Below, piece by piece: positions 1-41,287 of a stretch of DNA of 43,326 nt (position 1 is its first letter; each line of letters opens with the position of its first letter). The stretch covers positions 1 through 43,326 of the forward strand of contig NZ_LGTE01000024.1 in NCBI RefSeq assembly GCF_001263415.1, read 5' to 3'. Origin of the DNA: Thermincola ferriacetica. GTDB taxonomy: Bacteria > Bacillota > Thermincolia > Thermincolales > Thermincolaceae. A program made the position numbers and the translations under genes. A model generated the notes under the pieces. It saw only the letters and a program-made list of their open reading frames with translations. It was not told the origin of the DNA and did no database searches.

Positions 1-1
1 G

Positions 2-241
2 CAGCCGGCCAATGCCAACCGTTATCTTGTCAACAGGGCTGGCGTAAGGTTCCGGAAATACGACCTGGTGGTCTACCGCAGCAAAGCCGGCAGGGTGGTC
101 AAGGGGTATATCAATACCCTGTTCAGCCGCGGCGCGGTGCGTATAACCGACTACAGCGGCAAGGAACTGTATGCTGGTGCCAGTATCAACAAACTGAAGA
201 AACTTCAAAACACGGATACTTTGATATGGGAGGTGGCCTGA
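2..241 (+). CDS. iscB: Probable IscB C-terminal fragment (cut by window start)
   Basis: The reading frame is open from the first base to a TGA at 239-241 and gives about 79 residues; the true start lies outside the window. The visible segment (KYDLVVYRSKAGRVVKGYI, then RGAVRITDYSGKELYAGAS and KLKKLQ) matches in style the C-terminal target-recognition domain of IscB, the RNA-guided RuvC/HNH nuclease of IS200/IS605-like elements and ancestor of Cas9. No RuvC or HNH motif is visible because they would lie upstream. Support comes from context: a hairpin resembling the element's right end follows at once, and IscB-type omegaRNA-like sequences recur elsewhere in the window. The family call is an inference from a short fragment. 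Confidence 0.6.
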   Translation, partial: QPANANRYLVNRAGVRFRKYDLVVYRSKAGRVVKGYINTLFSRGAVRITDYSGKELYAGASINKLKKLQNTDTLIWEVA

Positions 242-242
242 C

Positions 243-283
243 GGCGCTTCCTCCCACGGTACGAGACCGTGGGTTCCCGCGCC
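243..283. mobile_element. IS200/IS605-like right-end hairpin after iscB
   Basis: CCCACGGT (253-260) pairs with ACCGTGGG (266-273), and an outer GGCGC pairs with GCGCC. The layout CGCTTCCTCCC - hairpin - GGGTTCCCGCG closely resembles the one at 24091-24132 (GCTTCCTCCC - hairpin - GGGGTTTCCGCG). This position just behind an iscB end is where a TnpA-recognised right-end hairpin is expected. Confidence 0.55.
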
Positions 284-294
284 GTCGGATTTTT

Positions 295-23659: not shown

Positions 23660-23789
23660 CGACCAGAGAAATATTTTTGAAATAAAGACAGGTTTCATTT
23701 ATATTATCGAACACAGGTGAAAAACAGTAAACCCCTTCGACAAAACCTGCCAAAAAATCACAAGTTGCAATGCTTGCTTAGGAACTTCA

Positions 23790-24132
23790 GTCAACCACCC
23801 CGGACTGAAGTCCGGGGCTTGCCTTGGCGGGGGCGAGGGCAACAGGTTGACTAGATTGAGCCATGTGTAATATAGGGCTACACAGGCGGGGCTAGAAGAA
23901 CCTCCCGGGTGCAAGTCCCAGCCCGGGGAAATTCGGCAGAACCGCTTAATGCCACGGGGAAAACCCCTAAGCCTTGCCTGTATTGTCGAGGGACACTAAA
24001 CCGGTTTGACCGTTCCGGGCTGAATACCAGCACAAAAACGGTCAGTCTTACAAAAAAAGAGGAAAGAGGAAAGAAATGAGGGAAAGGGCAGCTTCCTCCC
24101 CGGAATGAATTCCGGGGTTTCCGCGAGACGCG
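23790..24132 (+). mobile_element. IscB-less omegaRNA/HEARO-like element, copy 1
   Basis: The left end has GTCAACC (23790-23796) closing with GGTTGAC (23845-23851) around a CCCCGGACTGAAGTCCGGGG hairpin. The stretch to 24059 is about 95% identical by eye to 34227-34495. A ribosome-site-like AGAGGAAAG and an ATG at 24076 start a 10-codon frame that runs straight into a right-end hairpin (24098-24117, CCCCGGAATGAATTCCGGGG). This looks like an IS200/IS605-type element whose iscB has been deleted internally, keeping guide-RNA scaffold and ends. It fills the otherwise gene-free gap 23660-24159. HEARO identity is inferred from context, not from a covariance search. Confidence 0.6.
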
Positions 24133-24159
24133 TTGTTAGGCAAAGAAGGGAGGGTGTAC

Positions 24160-25998: not shown

Positions 25999-26343
25999 AT
26001 GTTCAATAAGAGAAAAACACTGATAATTATGCTGTTGGTTGTTTCTCTCGTTGCCCTGTTTGCACATGTGGCCTTTGCGGAACAACTTCCAAATCCGTCA
26101 GCCAAAGACCTGGGCGACAAAATCATTAAGTTGGTGCAGGATGTAGGTGAACCCCTGGGCTCAGCAGTAGTATTTGCAACGCTGTTGTTTGCTTTCTTCC
26201 GCCTGGCAGTCACCTCCGGTAACCCCACGGAGCGTGCCAAGACAGTGCAGTCGTTGTTGTATATAGTGGTGGCTGGCGTAGGTCTTGGCGGGGCCCTGTT
26301 CCTGGCCGGCTTCATCATGGGCCTGGGCAATAATTTGCAATAA
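25999..26343 (+). CDS. VirB2/TrbC-like conjugative pilin candidate
   Basis: A 114-residue protein with a signal peptide (TLIIMLLVVSLVALFAHVAFA), a short polar part (PSAKDLGDKIIKLVQDVGEP) and two hydrophobic segments separated by a short basic loop (SGNPTERAK). This is the classic VirB2-type hairpin. ATG 25999 has AAAAGGAG upstream. It lies between another two-helix protein and a VirB3-like gene, the order expected for a conjugation channel operon. Confidence 0.6.
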   Translation: MFNKRKTLIIMLLVVSLVALFAHVAFAEQLPNPSAKDLGDKIIKLVQDVGEPLGSAVVFATLLFAFFRLAVTSGNPTERAKTVQSLLYIVVAGVGLGGALFLAGFIMGLGNNLQ

Positions 26344-26656: not shown

Positions 26657-27057
26657 GGTCATAGACCCCACGGCTGAAGCCGGGGGCTTGTCCTCCAGGC
26701 TTTAGCCGTAGGCCCAAAAAAGGCCTCGCTATGACCAGCCTCAGAGGCCTGACTCGAAGGACAAGGGGATGAAGGTCCTACGTTACCGGGGAGAGCCGAA
26801 GTTCGCACTCCGGGATGCTCCTCCAGTCCCGAGACCCTGCAACCCGGCGGTTAAACAGCGAGCTGGGGGGTGTAGCGAGCAGTGCCGCCGGGAGACGGCC
26901 GCCCGGTAACATTGGCGAGGAGGGAGGCTGAGGAGAGTCCGCCTCAGCCCGTCACAAGGCCCTTACGGGCACAGGGGGCGTAAACCCCCTCCCCTTTACG
27001 GGGGACAAATTTAAGGCGCTTTCCTCCCTAGGCTTAAAAGCCGGGGCCTCCAGCGCC
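26657..27057 (+). mobile_element. OmegaRNA/HEARO-like structured element in the conjugation operon
   Basis: GGTCATAG (26657-26664) closes with CTATGACC (26729-26736) around a CGGCTGAAGCCG hairpin and a second GGCTTTAGCC-type stem, mirroring the GTCAACC/GGTTGAC architecture of the elements at 23790, 34227 and 43201. The body is rich in pairing (CCGGGGAGAGCC, CACTCCGGG). The right end has GGCGCT (27015-27020) paired with AGCGCC (27052-27057) around an inner GGCTTAAAAGCC hairpin. There is no coding frame for IscB. The primary sequence differs from copies 1 and 2, so it is a separate lineage. Confidence 0.5.
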
Positions 27058-27061
27058 ACAT

Positions 27062-27104: not shown

Positions 27105-27848
27105 ATGTCAACAGCAATAACCGTAATGTTTCTTGTGCTGTCCGCGTTAATGGGCGCGGCAATTTTTTACATGAACAAGAAAGCCCTGAAAGGCAGTGTC
27201 GGTTACGCCGGTAAAGCAGCGGAACAGAAGTCCGAGGAAATTTCCCGGGTGCAGAACCCTTTGCTCGGCCTGAAAAACATCAAAAACGGCATAGCTGAAT
27301 ACGATACCCATATGTGCATCTACCTGCGTTTGGGCAGTATCGATTTTCACCTGCTCACCGAAGGCGAGCAGCAGTCCGTCGAGGACGTGCTGCTGTCCCT
27401 GGCCCGGACAGTAAACTTTCCGGTTCAGGTGGTGGTTATCAGCCGCCAGACCGATACCAGGATGGCGGTAAACGGCGTTGTACAGAGCCTGAATATCAAC
27501 CGGTTAAGCCCGCAGTTGCGGAGCTACGCGGAACAAATGGTGCGGTATTTAAGCGCCATGATGGAGAACCGCGGCACGCCGGATTACGAAAAATACCTGG
27601 TGATCCGCTGTGATATGCTGGACAGCGCGGACAAAACCAGGAACGAGCTTTACCGCCGTGCCGACCTGGTAATCTCCGAACTGGCCAGGGCCAAGATCCC
27701 CTGCCAGCCGGTCAAAACCGACGAAATACCGGATATTTTCTTTGACCAGTTGAACCCGCAGCAGACCTTCAAACCCTCTGCTGCAATCAGGAACGGCGGT
27801 TTATATTACGCAAAAGGGGGTGGGATTGGTGCTGAAAAGACTGCTTGA
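27105..27848 (+). CDS. Conjugation accessory membrane protein (VirB4-associated)
   Basis: A 247-residue protein. One N-terminal membrane helix (ITVMFLVLSALMGAAIFYM) anchors a soluble domain containing YLRLGSIDFHLLTEGEQQSVEDVL and FPVQVVVISRQTDTR. That segment resembles the N-terminal domain of VirB4/TraE-type ATPases, encoded here as a separate protein. It overlaps the VirB4 gene by 20 bases, suggesting the two products act together at the inner face of the secretion channel. Start ATG 27105 has an unusual leader (see the hairpin entry). Confidence 0.6.
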   Translation: MSTAITVMFLVLSALMGAAIFYMNKKALKGSVGYAGKAAEQKSEEISRVQNPLLGLKNIKNGIAEYDTHMCIYLRLGSIDFHLLTEGEQQSVEDVLLSLARTVNFPVQVVVISRQTDTRMAVNGVVQSLNINRLSPQLRSYAEQMVRYLSAMMENRGTPDYEKYLVIRCDMLDSADKTRNELYRRADLVISELARAKIPCQPVKTDEIPDIFFDQLNPQQTFKPSAAIRNGGLYYAKGGGIGAEKTA

Positions 27849-29703
27849 CAGAACATCACAGGCGCGGCAGCCGGAAACCGACGAGTTTACCGCAAACACA
27901 CCCGGCCTGGACAACTTGATCAACCCTCCGTCCATAACAGAATACATAGACTACCTGAAGGTAGGAAGCAAATACCTGCGCGTGTTTGCGGTATCCGTCT
28001 ACCCGCTGCAGACGTATATATCCTGGCTGGACGATGTGTATATGATGGGCAGCGTGATTACCGCAATACACCTGCAGCCGCAGGAGCCGGCCATGGTCAA
28101 GGCTACCCTGACAAGAAAAATCACCAACAAGATGTCGCAGTATATACTCGAAGATAACCGGGGCAACATCCTGAACCTGCCTGAGCTTAAAAAGACCGTT
28201 GCCGATTATGAAAACCTGCGCGAACTCATCCAGACCGGCAGGGAAAAGCTGTTTTCCATTCAGATACTGTTTGGGATATATGCCGACACTATCGACGAAC
28301 TGAACGCGCGCAGTGTGGCCCTGGGCGACATACTGGCCCGGAGCGACGTGCGGATAATATCCCTGGACTATCGGCAGTACCAAGGTTTCAGAAGCCTGCT
28401 GGGCATGTGCCACTCCGGCATAACCCGGCCCTGGCAGAACGGCACGACGGGCAATACAATATCCATGCTGCCCATCACCGGCTCGGCCCTGAACCACCCG
28501 AACGGCATCTGGCTTGGCCGGAACTATTTCACCGGCTCCATGATGTTTTACGACCAGTTTGTCGGCCCGCCGGAACTGATGAACCCGCACATTGCCGTGT
28601 TCGGGTACTCCGGCGCAGGCAAAAGCACAACGCTGAAGGTAATGCTCCTGCGCGGAGCAATAAACGGCAGCCGGTACGTCACCATAGACGTAAACGGCGA
28701 ATATGCCCGGATGGTACCGTTTACCGGCGGCATAAACATCCCCATAAAACCCGGACAGGTATCCGGCATCAACCCCTTTGAACTGTCTGTCGAAGAAACG
28801 GAAACCGGGCAGGAGACGGCGAACGTGGCCGACAAAATTGCCGAGATTAAAGCTCTCATCACGACCATGGTCGAACTGGAAGGCCGGATAAGCCTCACCG
28901 CGCGGGAGAGCGCAATACTGACGGACGCCATAGGCGCGCTGTACGCCAAACGCGGGATAGACAGCAATCCCGACAGCCTGTACGAGCCAGCGCCCGGCGT
29001 GCAGGGAGACGAAATCAAGGTTGGTTATGTCAAAAAAGCCATGCCCACGCTGACCGAACTGGCCGAAGAACTCAGGAACATGGGTGCGGAGGACATGGCG
29101 ATTTATCTGAAACCCTTCCTGCGCACAGGGGAAAAGGGCATGTTCGACTGCACTTCTACAGTAAAACTGCATGACACATCTCACATTAACTTCGACCTGT
29201 CCCATATCAAGGACGACACCACCCGGCTGTATGCCTCTTTTGTTATCTACACCTGGGTCTGGCACGAGTTTGTGCTGAAGCTTGACAAGAGCATCAAAAA
29301 GGTGATAGAAAACGACGAGTGCTGGATGTTCACCAAACACCCTCTGGCCGCCGGGTTCCTGGAGAACTACGCCCGGCGCGGGCGGCACTACAGGTTTTCC
29401 CTGACCGTTGCCAGCCAGCAGGTGGAAGAATTTTTGTCCAGCGAATCAGGCAGGGCCATAATCAACAACTGCAGCACGGTAATCCTGCTGCGCCAGAACC
29501 CGTCGGTAGTTGAGATGGTCTGCGACCACTTCAGGCTGTCCGGCGGCAGCGGCGAGTTCCTGAACGGCTGCGGGCCGGGCGAAGGCATCATGCTGGCCGA
29601 CGGGCGGCTGCACGCAATAAAAATAACGCCGCTGGACTTCGAGATGAAGTACATCGACACAAGGCCGGACAAAGTTGCTGCGGAGGTGCGGAGACATGCT
29701 TAG
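27829..29703 (+). CDS. virB4: VirB4/TraE-like conjugation ATPase
   Basis: About 624 residues. A VirB4-type N-terminal region (YLRVFAVSVYPLQTYISWLD) is followed by the ATPase core: Walker A FGYSGAGKSTTLK (Lys265), TIDVNGEYARM, and Walker B VIENDECWMF near 494 with the RRGRHYRFSLTVASQQVEEFL motif after it. VirB4 energises pilus assembly and DNA transfer. GTG 27829 (or TTG 27826) follows AAAAGGGGGTGG. It overlaps the next gene by 8 bases. Size is at the small end for the family, matching the separate N-terminal partner encoded upstream. Confidence 0.9.
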   Translation: MLKRLLDRTSQARQPETDEFTANTPGLDNLINPPSITEYIDYLKVGSKYLRVFAVSVYPLQTYISWLDDVYMMGSVITAIHLQPQEPAMVKATLTRKITNKMSQYILEDNRGNILNLPELKKTVADYENLRELIQTGREKLFSIQILFGIYADTIDELNARSVALGDILARSDVRIISLDYRQYQGFRSLLGMCHSGITRPWQNGTTGNTISMLPITGSALNHPNGIWLGRNYFTGSMMFYDQFVGPPELMNPHIAVFGYSGAGKSTTLKVMLLRGAINGSRYVTIDVNGEYARMVPFTGGINIPIKPGQVSGINPFELSVEETETGQETANVADKIAEIKALITTMVELEGRISLTARESAILTDAIGALYAKRGIDSNPDSLYEPAPGVQGDEIKVGYVKKAMPTLTELAEELRNMGAEDMAIYLKPFLRTGEKGMFDCTSTVKLHDTSHINFDLSHIKDDTTRLYASFVIYTWVWHEFVLKLDKSIKKVIENDECWMFTKHPLAAGFLENYARRGRHYRFSLTVASQQVEEFLSSESGRAIINNCSTVILLRQNPSVVEMVCDHFRLSGGSGEFLNGCGPGEGIMLADGRLHAIKITPLDFEMKYIDTRPDKVAAEVRRHA

Positions 29704-31995: not shown

Positions 31996-32012
31996 AAAAA
32001 AAGGGGGTGGTC

Positions 32013-33293
32013 ATGTTGCAGGTGACCAAAGCTGTGCGCTTTCAGATTATCAAGCCTTTAAATTTTTCGTGGGATGAGTTTGGCAGGATACTGAACGACC
32101 TGTCATATCACACAACTCTAATGTGCAACGCAGCGGTCCAGATGTACTGGGAGCACAATGTCATGCGGAACCGGTACAAAGCCGAGCACGGCAGGTACCC
32201 GCAGGACAAAGAGATATACGGCCAGAGCTTCCGGAACGTGGTATACCACCGGCTGCGGGAGATGTACCCGCTGATGGCATCTTCCAACGTCAGCCAGACA
32301 AACCAGTTTGCCTTGAAACGATGGCAGACAGACTTGCGTGAGGTCATGCGCCTGCAGAAGTCTGTACCCTCCTTCCGCCTGGGGACTCCTGTTCAGGTAG
32401 CTAACCAGAACTATAGTTTGTATATCGCGAAAGGCGAACCGCCGGAATATTGCGCGGAAATCACGCTGTTGGGAAAGGATGCCGCCTGTCGCCGGTTCAC
32501 TGTTCTGCTCGATGCTGGTGACGCGCCGAAAAAGGCTGTATTCCGGCGCATCGTGGAAGGAAAGTATAAGCAGGGAGTTATGCAGATCATCAAACATCCC
32601 AGAAAAAAGAAATGGTTCTGCATAGTCTCATACACAATAACCAAAGACCCTGCTCCCGGTTTGGACCAGGAACGTGTCATGGGTGTGAACCTTGCCACCG
32701 GCGAGGCGGTATACTGGGCTTTTTCCTTTTCGCCGAAACGGGGAAGCATCCCCGCCGGCGAGATCGAGGCCGCGGAGAAAAAGATTCGGGCCATCACTGC
32801 CCGGCGCAGAGAGATGCAGCGGACTGCAGGCGTGACCGGCCACGGCAGGAAACGCAGGCTCAAGGCCACCAGGGTATTGGCCGGGAAAACTGCAAACATC
32901 CGCGATGCCATCAACCACAAATACAGCAGGCGGATAGTCCGGATCGCCGCTGCCAACCGGTGCGGCAAAATAAGGCTGGCCGACATGTCCGCGCTGGGGA
33001 TGTCAGGCGCGCTTAAAGCATGGCCCTGGTCCGACCTGGTGCAGAAAATAGGGTATAAGGCCGCAGAACAGGGCATTGACGTAGAAATAGTAGAAAAGCC
33101 CGGAGACCGGGCCAAAGCGTGGCACACCTGTTCCGAGTGCGGGTATTCCGCCCCGGAAAACGTGGGAGACAACACCGAATTCCTGGCCTGCAAGGAGTGC
33201 GGGGCCAGAATAAGCCTGGAGTATAACGCCGCGCTGAACATAGCGGTATTGGCCCGGGACAGCATCCCGGAACAGCAGACATCGGCAAGCTGA
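32013..33293 (+). CDS. cas12f: Nuclease-dead Cas12f-like (type V-F/V-U) effector
   Basis: A 426-residue protein. The C-terminal half follows Cas12f order: RuvC-I, a helical RRREMQR..GHGRKRRLK region, RuvC-II, a WPWSDLVQKIGYKA helix, a zinc ribbon (HTCSECG...LACKECG) and RuvC-III (EYNAALNIA). All three catalytic positions are changed: RuvC-I reads GVNLA with Asn226 for Asp, RuvC-II reads RLADM with Ala323 for Glu, and RuvC-III has Glu403 for Asp. The DNA-cutting site is thus predicted dead, while RNA- and DNA-binding parts are kept. ATG 32013 has AAGGGGG 5 bases upstream. A tracrRNA-like RNA and an array follow immediately. A TnpB-derived repressor (TldR) is the alternative family label. Confidence 0.82.
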   Translation: MLQVTKAVRFQIIKPLNFSWDEFGRILNDLSYHTTLMCNAAVQMYWEHNVMRNRYKAEHGRYPQDKEIYGQSFRNVVYHRLREMYPLMASSNVSQTNQFALKRWQTDLREVMRLQKSVPSFRLGTPVQVANQNYSLYIAKGEPPEYCAEITLLGKDAACRRFTVLLDAGDAPKKAVFRRIVEGKYKQGVMQIIKHPRKKKWFCIVSYTITKDPAPGLDQERVMGVNLATGEAVYWAFSFSPKRGSIPAGEIEAAEKKIRAITARRREMQRTAGVTGHGRKRRLKATRVLAGKTANIRDAINHKYSRRIVRIAAANRCGKIRLADMSALGMSGALKAWPWSDLVQKIGYKAAEQGIDVEIVEKPGDRAKAWHTCSECGYSAPENVGDNTEFLACKECGARISLEYNAALNIAVLARDSIPEQQTSAS

Positions 33294-33300
33294 TGTTTTC

Positions 33301-33555
33301 TTTCGGGCGATTCGGCGTCCGAGGGTGAGAAGTGCCGGCGGGACTTCGTGCAGGCCCGGTAACGCTCACCAAGCCTCCGCGGAAGCGGGAAACCTCCGGC
33401 CTGGACTCCCTGGTAAGGGGAAGGCGGGGCCGGACAGCCCGACAAGCACATAACGTGTCGTCGAAGTCCCGGCGTTTTGGCGCTATTGGGGATCGACGAC
33501 AAAAAACAAGCCGGAAACAGCAGAAAACCGCATAGGACCGGGTGTTCACAAACGG
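33301..33555 (+). ncRNA. tracrRNA-like RNA of the Cas12f-like locus, copy 1
   Basis: This starts 7 bases after the effector stop and runs to the first repeat. Conserved stems include GGTGAG/CTCACC and GTCGTCGA (33457-33464) with TCGACGAC (33493-33500). The anti-repeat GCCGGAAAC at 33510-33518 is the exact complement of the first nine bases of the repeat, GTTTCCGGC, and CAGCCC at 33434-33439 can pair with GGGCTG near the repeat end. The whole unit is duplicated at 34869-35126. Position between effector and array is the usual tracrRNA place in type V-F. Confidence 0.78.
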
Positions 33556-33790
33556 GTTTCCGGCCTGACTATGCAGGGCTGGAACCAAACAGCTAAAGTG
33601 CTCCAATTTCCAACCGGGGCACGGGTTTCCGGCCTAACTATACAGGGCTGGAACCCCTATCCCTGCAGCGTGGGTGCTTCTCCGGAAGGTAATCGTTTCC
33701 GGCCTAACTATACAGGGCTGGAACTAAACCCGCAGACCCGAACAGGCCCATTGCTGGCCAGTTTCCGGCCTGGCTGTGCAGGGCTGGAAA
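33556..33790 (+). CRISPR. CRISPR array: four 30-bp repeats, three spacers
   Basis: Repeats are at 33556-33585, 33625-33654, 33695-33724 and 33761-33790. Each starts GTTTCCGGCC and ends GGGCTGGAA(C), with CTGACTATGCA or CTAACTATACA in the middle; the last repeat is degenerate (TGGCTGTGCA, final base A), as usual at an array's distal end. Spacers are 39, 40 and 36 bases and unrelated to each other. The repeat ends are partly self-complementary. No adaptation genes (cas1, cas2) are present in the window. Confidence 0.88.
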
Positions 33791-33806: not shown

Positions 33807-34244
33807 ATTAAAACACTGCGAAACTTAATCAAAAGCGAGCGCGGTTCTGCAGGCGTGCTGGTACTGGGGCTGGGCCTGCTGGTAATTATGATCATGCTGG
33901 TCAGCTACAGCCATTCCGTATCCCAGGCCATAGCCGCAAGGAGCGCTTTTTTAAAAGCCCTTACCGCCGGGGCGGAAACAGCCGCGGCCAGGATCGACCT
34001 GACGGCGGCGGAAAGCAGCGGCAGCGTAACGCTGGCTGCCGATGCGGTGCAGGCGGCCAGGGAAGTGGTTATGTTAAACCTGCCGCCGAACCTGCGGCCA
34101 ATGGTGCAGATTACCGGTGTCACCCTGAACCGGCGCGCCGTAACTGTAACGGGCACACTGAACATGAGCATAAAAACCTTTTTCGGCGACAAGCCCGTTC
34201 TGTTCAGCGGCAGCGGTTCGGCCAGCGTCAACCACCCCGACTGA
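33807..34244 (+). CDS. TadE/TadG-like pseudopilin with apparent ATT start
   Basis: About 145 residues. Reading from ATT 33807 gives MKTLRNLIKSERGSAGVLVL, with the same basic segment, SERGSA site and hydrophobic helix as the TadE-like protein at 31561, and AGGAGGT lies 9 bases upstream. No ATG, GTG or TTG occurs before residue 17, inside the helix region, so a rare ATT start is the best reading. The ribosome site directly abuts the last CRISPR repeat. The C-terminus runs into the left end of an omegaRNA-like element (final residues VNHPD), which has probably replaced the native end. Confidence 0.65.
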   Translation: MKTLRNLIKSERGSAGVLVLGLGLLVIMIMLVSYSHSVSQAIAARSAFLKALTAGAETAAARIDLTAAESSGSVTLAADAVQAAREVVMLNLPPNLRPMVQITGVTLNRRAVTVTGTLNMSIKTFFGDKPVLFSGSGSASVNHPD

Positions 34245-34495
34245 AGTCCGGGGCTTGCCTTGGCGGGGGTGAGGGTAACAGGTTGACTAGACTGAGCCCT
34301 GTGTAATATAGGGCTACACAGGCGGGGCTAGAAGAACCACCCGGGTGCCGGTCCCAGCCCGGGGAAATTCGGCAGAACCGCTTAATGCCACGGGGGAAAC
34401 CCCTAAGCCCTGCCTGTATTGTCGAGGGACACTAAACCGGTTTGACCGTTCCGGGCTGAATACCAGCACAAAAACGGTCAGTCTTACAAAAAAAG
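34227..34495 (+). ncRNA. OmegaRNA/HEARO-like RNA, copy 2
   Basis: Aligns with 23790-24059 over about 269 bases with roughly a dozen differences and one missing base in the left hairpin. The closing stem GTCAACC/GGTTGAC and the segments CAGCCCGGGG, AACCGCTTAATGCCACGGG, GTCGAGGGACAC and GAATACCAGCAC are all kept. No iscB follows; instead the RNA ends at AAAAAAAGGGGGT, which is the ribosome site of the gene at 34507. Confidence 0.6.
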
Positions 34496-34506
34496 GGGGT
34501 GTGAAA

Positions 34507-34848
34507 GTGTTCAGAAAAATTTCAGGTATGGCAATTATCGCGTTGCTGGCATTGTTGCTGACAGCCCAGCCGTTATTCGCCGCCACAGCCGGCAACGGCA
34601 AAACATCCGGCGCGACCGGCGGGTCATGGCTGCGAGTCAGGGCGGTAACCAGCGCATCGGTCCCGCAGGGCAGTAAACCGGATATTGTCACCAGCATAAA
34701 TGAAGCCAAGCCTAACAGCTTCCTGGCAAATACAATGACGAAAAGCGAAAAGAAAAGCGTGTTCACCAGTCTTGTTGATCGGATAAAGTCCGGCATGGCA
34801 TATGCCTGGGAGTTTGTGCGGGACTGGATAACCGGGCTTTTCAACTGA
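34507..34848 (+). CDS. Small secreted protein
   Basis: A 113-residue protein with a clear signal peptide (MAIIALLALLLTAQPLFAA) and a short hydrophilic mature part ending in an amphipathic helix (MAYAWEFVRDWITGLF). GTG 34507 is preferred over GTG 34501 since AAAAGGGGGT ends at 34500. The family is not recognised. It lies between an omegaRNA-like element and the second tracrRNA-like copy, within the pilus/conjugation region, and may be an envelope component of that machinery. Confidence 0.55.
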   Translation: MFRKISGMAIIALLALLLTAQPLFAATAGNGKTSGATGGSWLRVRAVTSASVPQGSKPDIVTSINEAKPNSFLANTMTKSEKKSVFTSLVDRIKSGMAYAWEFVRDWITGLFN

Positions 34849-34868
34849 ATCATCGCAGACAGAACTGT

Positions 34869-35126
34869 TTTCGGGCGATTCGGCGTCCGAGGGTGAGAAG
34901 TGCCGGCGGGACTTCGTGCAGGCCCGGTAACGCTCACCAAGCCTCCGCAGAAAGCGGGAAACCTCCGGTCTGGACTCCCTGGGAAGCAGGGAAGGCGGGG
35001 CCGGACAGCCCGACAAGCACATAACGTGTCGTCGAAGTCCCGGCGTTTTAACGCTATTGGGGATCGACGACAAAAAGCAAGCCGGAAACAGCAGAAAACC
35101 GCATAAGACCGGGTGTTCACAGACGG
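34869..35126 (+). ncRNA. tracrRNA-like RNA, copy 2 (no adjacent effector)
   Basis: Near-identical to 33301-33555 from TTTCGGGCGATTCGG onward, with a few substitutions and small indels mainly in loops. The anti-repeat GCCGGAAAC is at 35081-35089. It follows the secreted-protein gene by about 20 bases and leads straight into a two-repeat mini-array. With no effector gene here, it would have to act with the protein encoded at 32013. Confidence 0.75.
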
Positions 35127-35202
35127 GTTTCCGGCCTAACTATACAGGGCTGGAACATGGGTTTGTTGCAAAATTTCCGGCCTGACTATGCAGGGCTGGA
35201 AC
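35127..35202 (+). CRISPR. Mini-array: two repeats around a 16-base spacer
   Basis: Repeat one is 35127-35156 and repeat two 35173-35202, the latter beginning ATTTCC instead of GTTTCC. The spacer 35157-35172 (ATGGGTTTGTTGCAAA) is 16 bases, less than half those in the main array. The sequence after the second repeat runs into the leader of the next gene. Confidence 0.75.
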
Positions 35203-35213
35203 AGGGGCAAAAC

Positions 35214-35732
35214 ATGCAGTACGCAAACAGGACGGCTGCAGAAGAGGAAAGAAGGGAGGGAAAGGGCAGCTTCCTCCCCGGAATGAATTCCGGTGAGGAA
35301 GCTGCCCGGTTTTCTATGAGGAAATGGTTGGTGCTTAAAAATTTTTTGGTTTTATTAGTTGTATCGGGAATTATGGTTAAGGGATATGCTTACTTATGGC
35401 CAGGGATTGTAAAAATGTACCATCATAGCCAGCCGGAAGTGTTTTGGATAAAGTTGAGGCAAGTTTTTGTCTGGGCTATGATAATGGACTTGTCAGTAGC
35501 TATAGTTGTAATGTTTATGCTTAATATCGTTCGAGAAACATCTTGGACTAAAAAGCAAACTGCTACTGTTATAATTGGTTCGTTTATAGCTCCATTTGTT
35601 CAGGTGGGTGCGATAGGTTTTGCAGCATCAGATACTTCTGCGCAAGTTTTATTGATTGTTTTTGTGTTGGGGCTTTTTATCATCGATTTTTTAAAGAATG
35701 GAGGAGCGCGAGGGGGCAGTAATTCCCCTTAA
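35214..35732 (+). CDS. Small polytopic membrane protein
   Basis: Up to 172 residues. From about residue 35 it is AT-rich and hydrophobic with four membrane segments (NFLVLLVVSGIMVKG; FVWAMIMDLSVAIVVMFML; VIIGSFIAPFVQVGAIGF; VLLIVFVLGLFIIDF). Start is uncertain: ATG 35214 follows AGGGG but leads through a transposon-like hairpin; ATG 35316 starts MRKWLVLKNF right before the first helix and has its ribosome site (GAAGGGAGGG) on the far side of that hairpin. The second start looks more natural. Base composition differs from the GC-rich flanks. Family not recognised. Confidence 0.55.
   Translation: MQYANRTAAEEERREGKGSFLPGMNSGEEAARFSMRKWLVLKNFLVLLVVSGIMVKGYAYLWPGIVKMYHHSQPEVFWIKLRQVFVWAMIMDLSVAIVVMFMLNIVRETSWTKKQTATVIIGSFIAPFVQVGAIGFAASDTSAQVLLIVFVLGLFIIDFLKNGGARGGSNSP
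35251..35315 (+). repeat. IS200/IS605-like right-end hairpin, solo
   Basis: GGGCAGCTTCCTC pairs with GAGGAAGCTGCCC (outer arms 35264-35307) around an inner CCGGAAT/ATTCCGG. Its left part, GAGGGAAAGGGCAGCTTCCTCC, is identical to 24078-24099 in the copy-1 element. A GAAGGGAGGG ribosome site lies before and TTTTCT-ATG after the hairpin. Confidence 0.5.
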
Positions 35733-35752
35733 TTCATTGAGGGGATACACGG

Positions 35753-35782
35753 ACCCCCTCGTTTTTCTGAAAAAAGGGGGTG
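35753..35782. mobile_element. Left-end hairpin of the TnpB element
   Basis: ACCCCCT pairs with AGGGGGT around a T/A-rich centre just before tnpB. The second arm also supplies the tnpB ribosome site. The preceding GGGGATACACGG segment probably belongs to the same end. Confidence 0.5.
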
Positions 35783-35790
35783 ACCAGATA

Positions 35791-37032
35791 TTGTTTCTAA
35801 CGGTGAAGGCACAGGTACATGCCGATAGAGAAACCGAAGCCGTTCTGAAAGACGCGATGTTTTGTGCCACCAAAGTTTACAACGGCCTGCTGTGGCATCT
35901 GCGGGAAGGATCGAAAGAGACCGGCAAGGTAAACCTGAGTTGGTCGAACATCAACCGAATAATCAAAGAACTTCCCCAGGCGAAAGGCTACTATTCCCTG
36001 TCCGTGCGGATGACCTGTCTCGAAGTGATGGAGGCGTACAGGTCCTTTTTCGCCTTGAAGAAAAACGGACGTGTTAAGCACAACGCTCCCGGCTTCCGGC
36101 GAAAAACCGCATTGTCACCGCTAAAATACGTCCAAAGCGGGTTTAAAGTAGTCGGTGACCGGGTAACCGTAAGCCTGGGCACATCCCGCCCGGACGGCGT
36201 GCGTCGGGTTTCCTTTCGCGTTTCCCGCCGATCCGGGATAAGCCTAAGTAACCTGCGCGAACTTTCCATCATCTACGATAAGCTAACCGGGCGGCTGGAA
36301 GCCCGTCTGGTGGTGGAAGTTCAGTTATGCGAAAATGCCGGTACCGGCAGGGCGGCAGTGGACCTGGGCGAGACAGTGCTGTTGGCGGCGGCATTTGACG
36401 ACGGCGGGTCTATTCTCTATTCCGGCAGACTGATCAAGTCAATCCGGCGGTATTGGCAGAAAGTGCGTGCGAAAGTCAAACCCCCGTCCAAAGAACAGCC
36501 GCGCATGTCCCGGCATTACCGCCAGATTGCCCGCAAGGAGCGCCGGCAGGTAGAACACCTGCTGCATATAGTCTCCAAGCACTTTGTGGAAGAGTGTGTG
36601 ATGCGCGGGGTGGGCGAGATCGTATTCGGCGACCTGACCGGCAGGGTGGAAGGCAGGAGGTTTGGCCGGATGAACCAGCGGCTGCACGCATGGGCGTTCC
36701 ACAAACTGACAGACATGGTTGTGTACAAAGCGGCGCTGGTCGGGATCGCGGTGCGGAAGCACGACGAAAACGGCACGTCTATAACCTGCCACGCCTGCGG
36801 TGTAGAAAAACCGTCGAACCGGAAAAGCCGCGGCTTGTACCTGTGCAGGTGCGGCTGGACGGCGCACGCCGACATCAATGCAGCCCTAAATATCTACGAG
36901 AGGGCGTACAACGTATCTCCCGTCAAGGGGAGTAGTGGCCTGGTGGCGAGGCCCGTGGTCTTGTCGTTCCGGATGGATCGGCATACGGTCCACGAACCGA
37001 AGCGCAGGATAACCCTGCGCCCATCCGCTTAA
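35791..37032 (+). CDS. tnpB: TnpB RNA-guided nuclease (relocated RuvC-II type)
   Basis: A 413-residue protein with intact RuvC residues: Asp191 in AAVDLGETV, Asp361 in HADINAALNI, and a zinc ribbon (CHACG...CRCG). The RuvC-II strand reads IVFGDLTG, with Gly280 where canonical TnpBs have Glu, and a Glu287 follows in GRVEG. This matches the known TnpB group with a shifted RuvC-II glutamate, so the enzyme is probably active. TTG 35791 follows AAAAAGGGGGTGACC. No tnpA transposase is present; the element would need one in trans. Transposon ends flank it at 35753 and 37033. Confidence 0.85.
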   Translation: MFLTVKAQVHADRETEAVLKDAMFCATKVYNGLLWHLREGSKETGKVNLSWSNINRIIKELPQAKGYYSLSVRMTCLEVMEAYRSFFALKKNGRVKHNAPGFRRKTALSPLKYVQSGFKVVGDRVTVSLGTSRPDGVRRVSFRVSRRSGISLSNLRELSIIYDKLTGRLEARLVVEVQLCENAGTGRAAVDLGETVLLAAAFDDGGSILYSGRLIKSIRRYWQKVRAKVKPPSKEQPRMSRHYRQIARKERRQVEHLLHIVSKHFVEECVMRGVGEIVFGDLTGRVEGRRFGRMNQRLHAWAFHKLTDMVVYKAALVGIAVRKHDENGTSITCHACGVEKPSNRKSRGLYLCRCGWTAHADINAALNIYERAYNVSPVKGSSGLVARPVVLSFRMDRHTVHEPKRRITLRPSA

Positions 37033-37067
37033 GGATGCCCCCTACTTTAGTAGGGGGAGGATGTCAC
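36900..37067 (+). ncRNA. TnpB omegaRNA region and transposon right end
   Basis: TnpB guide RNAs come from the 3' end of tnpB through the right end. Here GTCAAGGGGAGTAGTGGCC, GCGCAGGATAACCCTGCGC and the CCCCCTAC-TTTAG-TAGGGGG hairpin (about 37038-37058) followed by GAGGATGTCAC give the standard layout. The bases after 37067 (GAATGTTCTTTTGTTGCG) would be the guide at this insertion site. Confidence 0.65.
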
Positions 37068-41128: not shown

Positions 41129-41143
41129 AGCGGAGTTGATGAG

Positions 41144-41287
41144 GTGGGAAAGGTTCCCCACGCGCCCGTGTGGTCAAAAGAGATGCAGGGTTTACCGTCT
41201 GCCGTCAACTCCGAAAGGGAATACGCTGCAGAAGTGGTTCGCGAGACCGGGGAGGTAATATTATGGCTCCAAAGCAGGCTGAAATAA
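41144..41287 (+). pseudogene. HEPN-domain C-terminal remnant
   Basis: From GTG 41144 the frame reads VGKVPHAPVWSKEMQG, then SEREYAAEVVRETGEVILWLQ and SRLK, then TAA. The ILWLQSRL ending and the position overlapping an MNT nucleotidyltransferase start match the tail of HEPN toxins of HEPN/MNT pairs. The N-terminal two-thirds, including the RxxxxH site, is missing, so it is probably broken. Confidence 0.5.

Follow-up and report, generated by a model that had tools for sequence, protein, structure and literature searches.

A nuclease-less, putatively mobile element with a predicted IsrB-type ωRNA on a conjugative replicon of Thermincola ferriacetica

Positions 23790–24132 of a Thermincola ferriacetica contig hold a complete OMEGA guide-RNA scaffold flanked by hairpins at the left and right ends, and no nuclease open reading frame (ORF) separates the scaffold from the right end. 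What kind of element is this, and which protein could its RNA serve? An earlier note read it as an IscB-type RNA left behind by an internal deletion of the nuclease gene and mobilized by a TnpA in trans. The window analyzed here, 43,326 nucleotides in length, makes up all of contig C24, one of the 78 contigs of a 3.18-Mb genome. Conjugation proteins are encoded on it (e.g., a VirB4-like ATPase at 27820–29703 and a TrbC/VirB2-like pilin at 25999–26343), which identifies the replicon as a plasmid or an integrative conjugative element. The contig also encodes a 444-aa TnpB-family protein (35698–37032; NCBIfam guided_TnpB, 173 bits), at the gene for which the IsrB ωRNA model has a weak antisense match (36957–37065, 18.4 bits), and a skipping-rope RNA (RF02924) at 41134–41210 (59.9 bits).

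The 343-base element lies on the forward strand between two helix-turn-helix genes. Its scaffold (S1, SL1, SL2, nexus, and SL4–SL6 in the consensus fold) occupies 23790–23996, with a 3′ limit at 23996/24001. The left-end hairpin corresponds to SL1 (ACCCCGGACTGAAGTCCGGGGC), and an inner right-end hairpin (CCCCGGAATGAATTCCGGGG) is present at 24098–24117. The two terminal hairpins described previously can thus be recognized, except that the right-end outer stem is unformed in this copy; it is formed in a second copy in the window (copy 2, at 35264–35284/35287–35307). Immediately 3′ of the right end, the TAM position is occupied by TTGT (24133–24136), in register with the TTGA motif found 3′ of the right ends of relatives (TTGA, GTGA), and the boundaries originally proposed for the element are therefore correct. 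Directly 5′ of the scaffold, 20 nt of flanking DNA (23770–23789) take the position of the guide segment, based on register with the DtIsrB ωRNA and its 20-nt guide (PMC9581776). Farther upstream of the RNA is a sigma-70-type promoter-like site (TTGAAA-17-TATATT, 23677–23705), recognized solely as a match to 10 of 12 consensus positions. The start-codon stub of ten codons that had been reported does exist as an ORF at 24076–24108 (MRERAASSPE, then stop), but comparison with relatives indicates that it is not an isrB remnant. It does not resemble the N-terminus of IsrB (M..RVPVV) and is absent from a nuclease-less relative in genome G345 (another class of the phylum), which argues that it is probably a chance ORF.

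The class of the RNA was evaluated with a covariance model (R1) comprising 12 IsrB ωRNAs, none of which came from the window. Scores with R1 were 172 bits for the scaffold (E 3.7e-43), 159.7 bits for copy 2, and only 37.7 bits for a third, IscB-type copy in the window. The Rfam HEARO model (RF02033) placed them in the opposite order, with 96 bits for copy 3 versus 67 bits for the 343-base element. A HEARO search had been proposed earlier as a check on the locus; it returned the scaffold (67.1 bits, E 1.8e-13), but below the gathering cut-off of 83. Both models thus confirm the scaffold, but the label ‘IscB’ was mistaken: rather than matching an IscB-type model better than an IsrB-type model, the scaffold scored 67 bits with HEARO versus 172 bits with the IsrB model, and these scores led us to reject an IscB assignment.

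A 20-base signature in SL5 (CGGCAGAACCGCTNAATGCC, 23934–23953), which includes the CCGCT strand of the adaptor pseudoknot, was scanned in 2.9 million viral contigs and ~85,000 species genomes, yielding four matches in the former and 13 in the latter. Two of these 17 were chance matches in coding sequence. The others were ωRNAs, nearly all followed by isrB, and included the one in Desulfovirgula thermocuniculi, the source of the solved DtIsrB complex; the published landmarks C107, A108, G245, and A246 fall on the correct letters of the D. thermocuniculi sequence. A looser SL5 pattern gave 24 matches, and none of the new ones fits the IsrB model. The RNA encoded at 23790–24132 is able to form the two pseudoknots known from the DtIsrB ωRNA structure. 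The adaptor pseudoknot (GGCGG/CCGCT) is retained, and the nexus pseudoknot is GTCCC/GGGAC here and TCGCC/GGCGA in DtIsrB, with strands that pair beyond chance across all sequences (82 pairs versus a maximum of 74 in 5000 shuffles). The consensus fold, derived from 16 sequences, has 28 pairs that changed on both sides. Collectively, the signature, the covariance model, the pseudoknots, the scaffold tree, and the full-length relatives argue that, as judged by comparison of sequences, this RNA is an IsrB-type ωRNA, that is, of the type that belongs to an HNH-less nickase. An SL7 with a Shine-Dalgarno sequence directly upstream of isrB was not found; an 8-bp helix is in its place and no isrB follows, suggesting a nuclease-less variant rather than a complete IsrB system.

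The relatives reveal which gene fills the interval. At two loci in G345 and in G468, the same type of scaffold precedes a full-length isrB and then a right end, and in the scaffold tree the 343-base element and copy 2 group with these IsrB elements (UFBoot 99). The gene proper to the interval is thus isrB, and not iscB as previously assumed. G345 also has a nuclease-less copy (L102:1747–2170), 4.4 kb from its IsrB element. Overall, scaffolds with more than 140 bits and no full isrB were distributed over at least five branches of the tree, comprising the pair in the window, G345, a viral contig (L046), G506 (L132), and G519 (L143 and L146), in a census that relied on ωRNA models and so under-counted copies that have lost the scaffold. 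On a single contig of G519 (C31), a full IsrB element (L133) and two deletion derivatives with intact ωRNA (L143 and L146) are located within 29 kb. The element was absent from all members of the family to which the genome belongs and from the other nine members of the class that were tested, such that no empty site could be read. No matches were obtained in DNA searches with the element (plasmids and phages) or with the G345 copy (plasmids), or in scans of viral contigs with IsrB peptides and with a pattern of the 3′ domain.

Copy 2 spans 34227–35307 on the same strand and comprises the same scaffold and 3′ domain (34227–34498), an internal segment of 743 bp (34499–35241) that separates the 3′ domain from the right end, and a right end with a complete outer stem (35242–35307). 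The internal segment encodes a 113-aa secreted-like ORF (34507–34849); no convincing relatives were found for this small ORF or for its upstream neighbor. It also contains a duplicate (34869–35207, ~95%) of a Cas12f tracrRNA-like segment, here accompanied by two repeats and a 16-nt gap. The other copy of that segment is part of a type V-F CRISPR locus on the conjugative replicon (32007–33790), which encodes a Cas12f-like effector (428 aa; PADLOC Cas12f, 359 bits) followed by the tracrRNA-like segment (33301–33555) and a mini-array of four ~30-nt repeats (GTTTCCGGCCTAACTATACAGGGCTGGAAC) and three 36–40-nt spacers. We do not favor the 743-bp segment as the ancestral state, since the short layout of 23790–24132 is shared by the G345 copy. 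Copy 3 (26658–27058, forward strand) is likewise nuclease-less, with a right-end hairpin at ~27018–27058 followed by ATGA. Copies 1 (23790–24132) and 2 are 96% identical and have unrelated flanks; two near-identical copies at unrelated sites of one contig are a signature of mobility. Together with near-terminal palindromes and the lack of any gene, they support the earlier view that the element is non-autonomous.

Does the element represent a recent loss of isrB or something older? The 343-base element and the nuclease-less G345 copy have a 3′ domain in common that is absent from the IsrB-bearing copies examined. It contains an 8-bp helix around SL8, formed by TGACCGTT (24007–24014) and AACGGTCA (24037–24044) in the former and by TAGTGGTT/AACCACTA in the latter; each helix alone is expected in <2% of shuffles. 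At that position, IsrB-bearing copies mostly have the Shine-Dalgarno hairpin of isrB, and none has the 8-bp helix. Between the two nuclease-less copies, four of the eight pairs in this helix changed on both sides and none was broken. Among all 29 pairs checked, nine double-sided changes were identified and every position remains paired, whereas slid controls gave at most one. The CCGG/CCGG stem of the 3′ domain never varies, and for the 8-bp helix RNAfold prefers a long hairpin around SL8 over a pseudoknot. Since this helix is confined to nuclease-less copies, its paired changes indicate that selection probably acted on the RNA after isrB was lost, the covariation of this helix being drawn from two independent lineages. 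Likewise, the gene-less layout and special 3′ domain common to the G345 copy suggest that the element probably belongs to an older nuclease-less lineage, one apparently akin to the G345 and G468 IsrB elements, and is not a fresh deletion. Internal deletion of a nuclease gene, as the earlier note proposed for this locus, is instead true of L143 and L146 in G519, where an isrB stub or fused ends are found. The core of the nuclease-less G345 copy is 88% identical to IsrB-bearing copies of its own genome versus 76% to 23790–24132, and the common 3′ domain could thus have spread by recombination.

These paired changes also bear on the alternative that the element is a decaying remnant, that is, a core-deleted IS605-type element that is passively moved or inherited and in which the ωRNA survives because it overlaps the left end and decay is recent. 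Palindrome-associated transposable elements (PATEs) are core-deleted IS605 elements, and their origin through repeat-mediated deletion of the core is known (PMC3119063). L143 and L146 are plain deletion derivatives beside a full copy, a pseudogene is present in G121, and the outer right-end stem at 23790–24132 is broken, all of which are in line with decay. However, PATEs that consist of termini only indicate that mobility requires far less than 210 nt (PMC3119063), and nine double-sided changes with no broken pair relative to the G345 copy are not expected under drift, particularly as four of the nine are in the helix found only in nuclease-less copies. We therefore regard simple decay as a serious but rather unlikely explanation.

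A second alternative follows from the guide. The guide positions of the element (23770–23789) and of the nuclease-less G345 copy (L102:1727–1746) are identical at 14 of 20 positions, a level reached at ~1 in 10,000 window positions, while other pairs of copies share 2–10. Both copies are also upstream of helix-turn-helix genes. An exapted regulatory RNA, in which a stand-alone ωRNA and IsrB act on a fixed target such as a promoter of the replicon or a competing plasmid, would account for these likenesses. It is nonetheless improbable, given that no second match to the guide with three or fewer mismatches was found in G000 or G345 beyond the self locus, that the guide of copy 2 is unrelated, and that the likeness involves two sequences only.

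The least credible candidate is the IscB of the ORF that stops at position 241, which the earlier note had named as a possible partner: the IscB-like C-terminus and partial IscB-type ωRNA found at the contig ends and an intact IscB on contig C4 would fit such a pairing, but since model, signature, pseudoknots, and tree all assign the scaffold to the IsrB type we consider it very improbable. The region in question (1–290, forward strand) is truncated by the contig start and comprises the C-terminal codons of an IscB/IsrB-like ORF (a weak match to IscB, E 0.014) and a right-end hairpin, and the 5′ half of an IscB-type ωRNA is cut at its 3′ side by the contig end (43201–43326, forward strand; R1 44.7 bits). 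The two are probably parts of one IscB element split by the contig ends, which makes for a mismatched partner. Since they look like halves of a single element, the contig may derive from a circular replicon that the assembly interrupted within that element.

The same genome encodes an intact IsrB on contig C4 (343 aa, ~82% to DtIsrB) as well as three Y1 TnpA genes, and this IsrB appears to be a better candidate partner than the ORF ending at 241. It is a member of the DtIsrB-like subgroup, however, and the ωRNA that goes with it shares only 67% identity with that at 23790–24132. In the latter RNA, SL7, a point of contact with IsrB in the DtIsrB complex, is altered. No close cognate IsrB of this ωRNA was found in the assembly, and no ends matching the element were seen beside the three Y1 TnpA genes.

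Collectively, we slightly favor the interpretation that 23790–24132 is a miniature, non-autonomous IS200/IS605-like element, the sole content of which is a complete IsrB-type ωRNA, and that it parasitizes both a transposase and a nickase. Under this interpretation, the element would be moved by a TnpA supplied in trans. Its RNA, in which the adjoining 20 nt of left flank would serve as the guide, would be transcribed from its own promoter (candidate at 23677–23705) or from one of the host, and would be loaded into the IsrB of another element, whether the C4 protein or a closer IsrB that was formerly present. The ribonucleoprotein would then nick the empty donor site, in which the left flank adjoins a TTG-type TAM (the right side begins TTGT), and nicking there would favor retention of the element. 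More tentatively, nuclease-less IsrB-type ωRNAs as a whole may constitute a maintained, RNA-only class of OMEGA with a 3′ domain of its own, one that exploits the IsrB and transposase of others in trans.

How does such an element compare to known systems? The DtIsrB ωRNA (PMC9581776) is alike in architecture, position of the 20-nt guide, nexus and adaptor pseudoknots, and a TTG-type TAM at the right end (TTGA is the TAM of DtIsrB, and PMC9581776 gives TTGA and NTG TAMs). The two RNAs are 66.5% identical, however, no isrB follows the scaffold at 23790–24132, and the 8-bp helix around SL8 replaces the SL7 hairpin with its Shine-Dalgarno sequence. The overall consensus fold of HEARO RNA (RF02033) is also alike, although here the score is below the cut-off and there is no HNH ORF. 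Stand-alone ωRNAs that work with IscB are reported (ref. 4 of PMC9581776, the IsrB structure paper) and are similar in that the guide RNA has no adjacent nuclease gene, whereas the RNA described here is IsrB-type and is located inside a mobile element with both ends, its use in trans being putative. PATEs (PMC3119063) share IS605-type ends, the lack of a transposase or nuclease gene, and multiple copies. The element likewise has near-terminal palindromes at both ends, albeit with the right outer stem unformed, and no transposase gene. Yet PATEs are described as terminal sequences (PMC3119063), whereas an entire structured guide RNA is retained at 23790–24132. The literature searched, the coverage of which was incomplete, contained no recurrent IsrB-type version with a covarying 3′ domain of its own, and such a variant thus appears to be new.

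The presence of two copies on one replicon, an intact IsrB encoded on another contig of the genome, and the sets of elements in G345 and G519 make the question of use in trans directly testable. If the RNA is used in trans, then a mobile element needs nothing more than a guide RNA to persist, with transposase and nickase both borrowed. Free-standing guides that are apart from their nuclease would be an expected intermediate in the transition from OMEGA systems to the CRISPR-like split between tracrRNA and effector.
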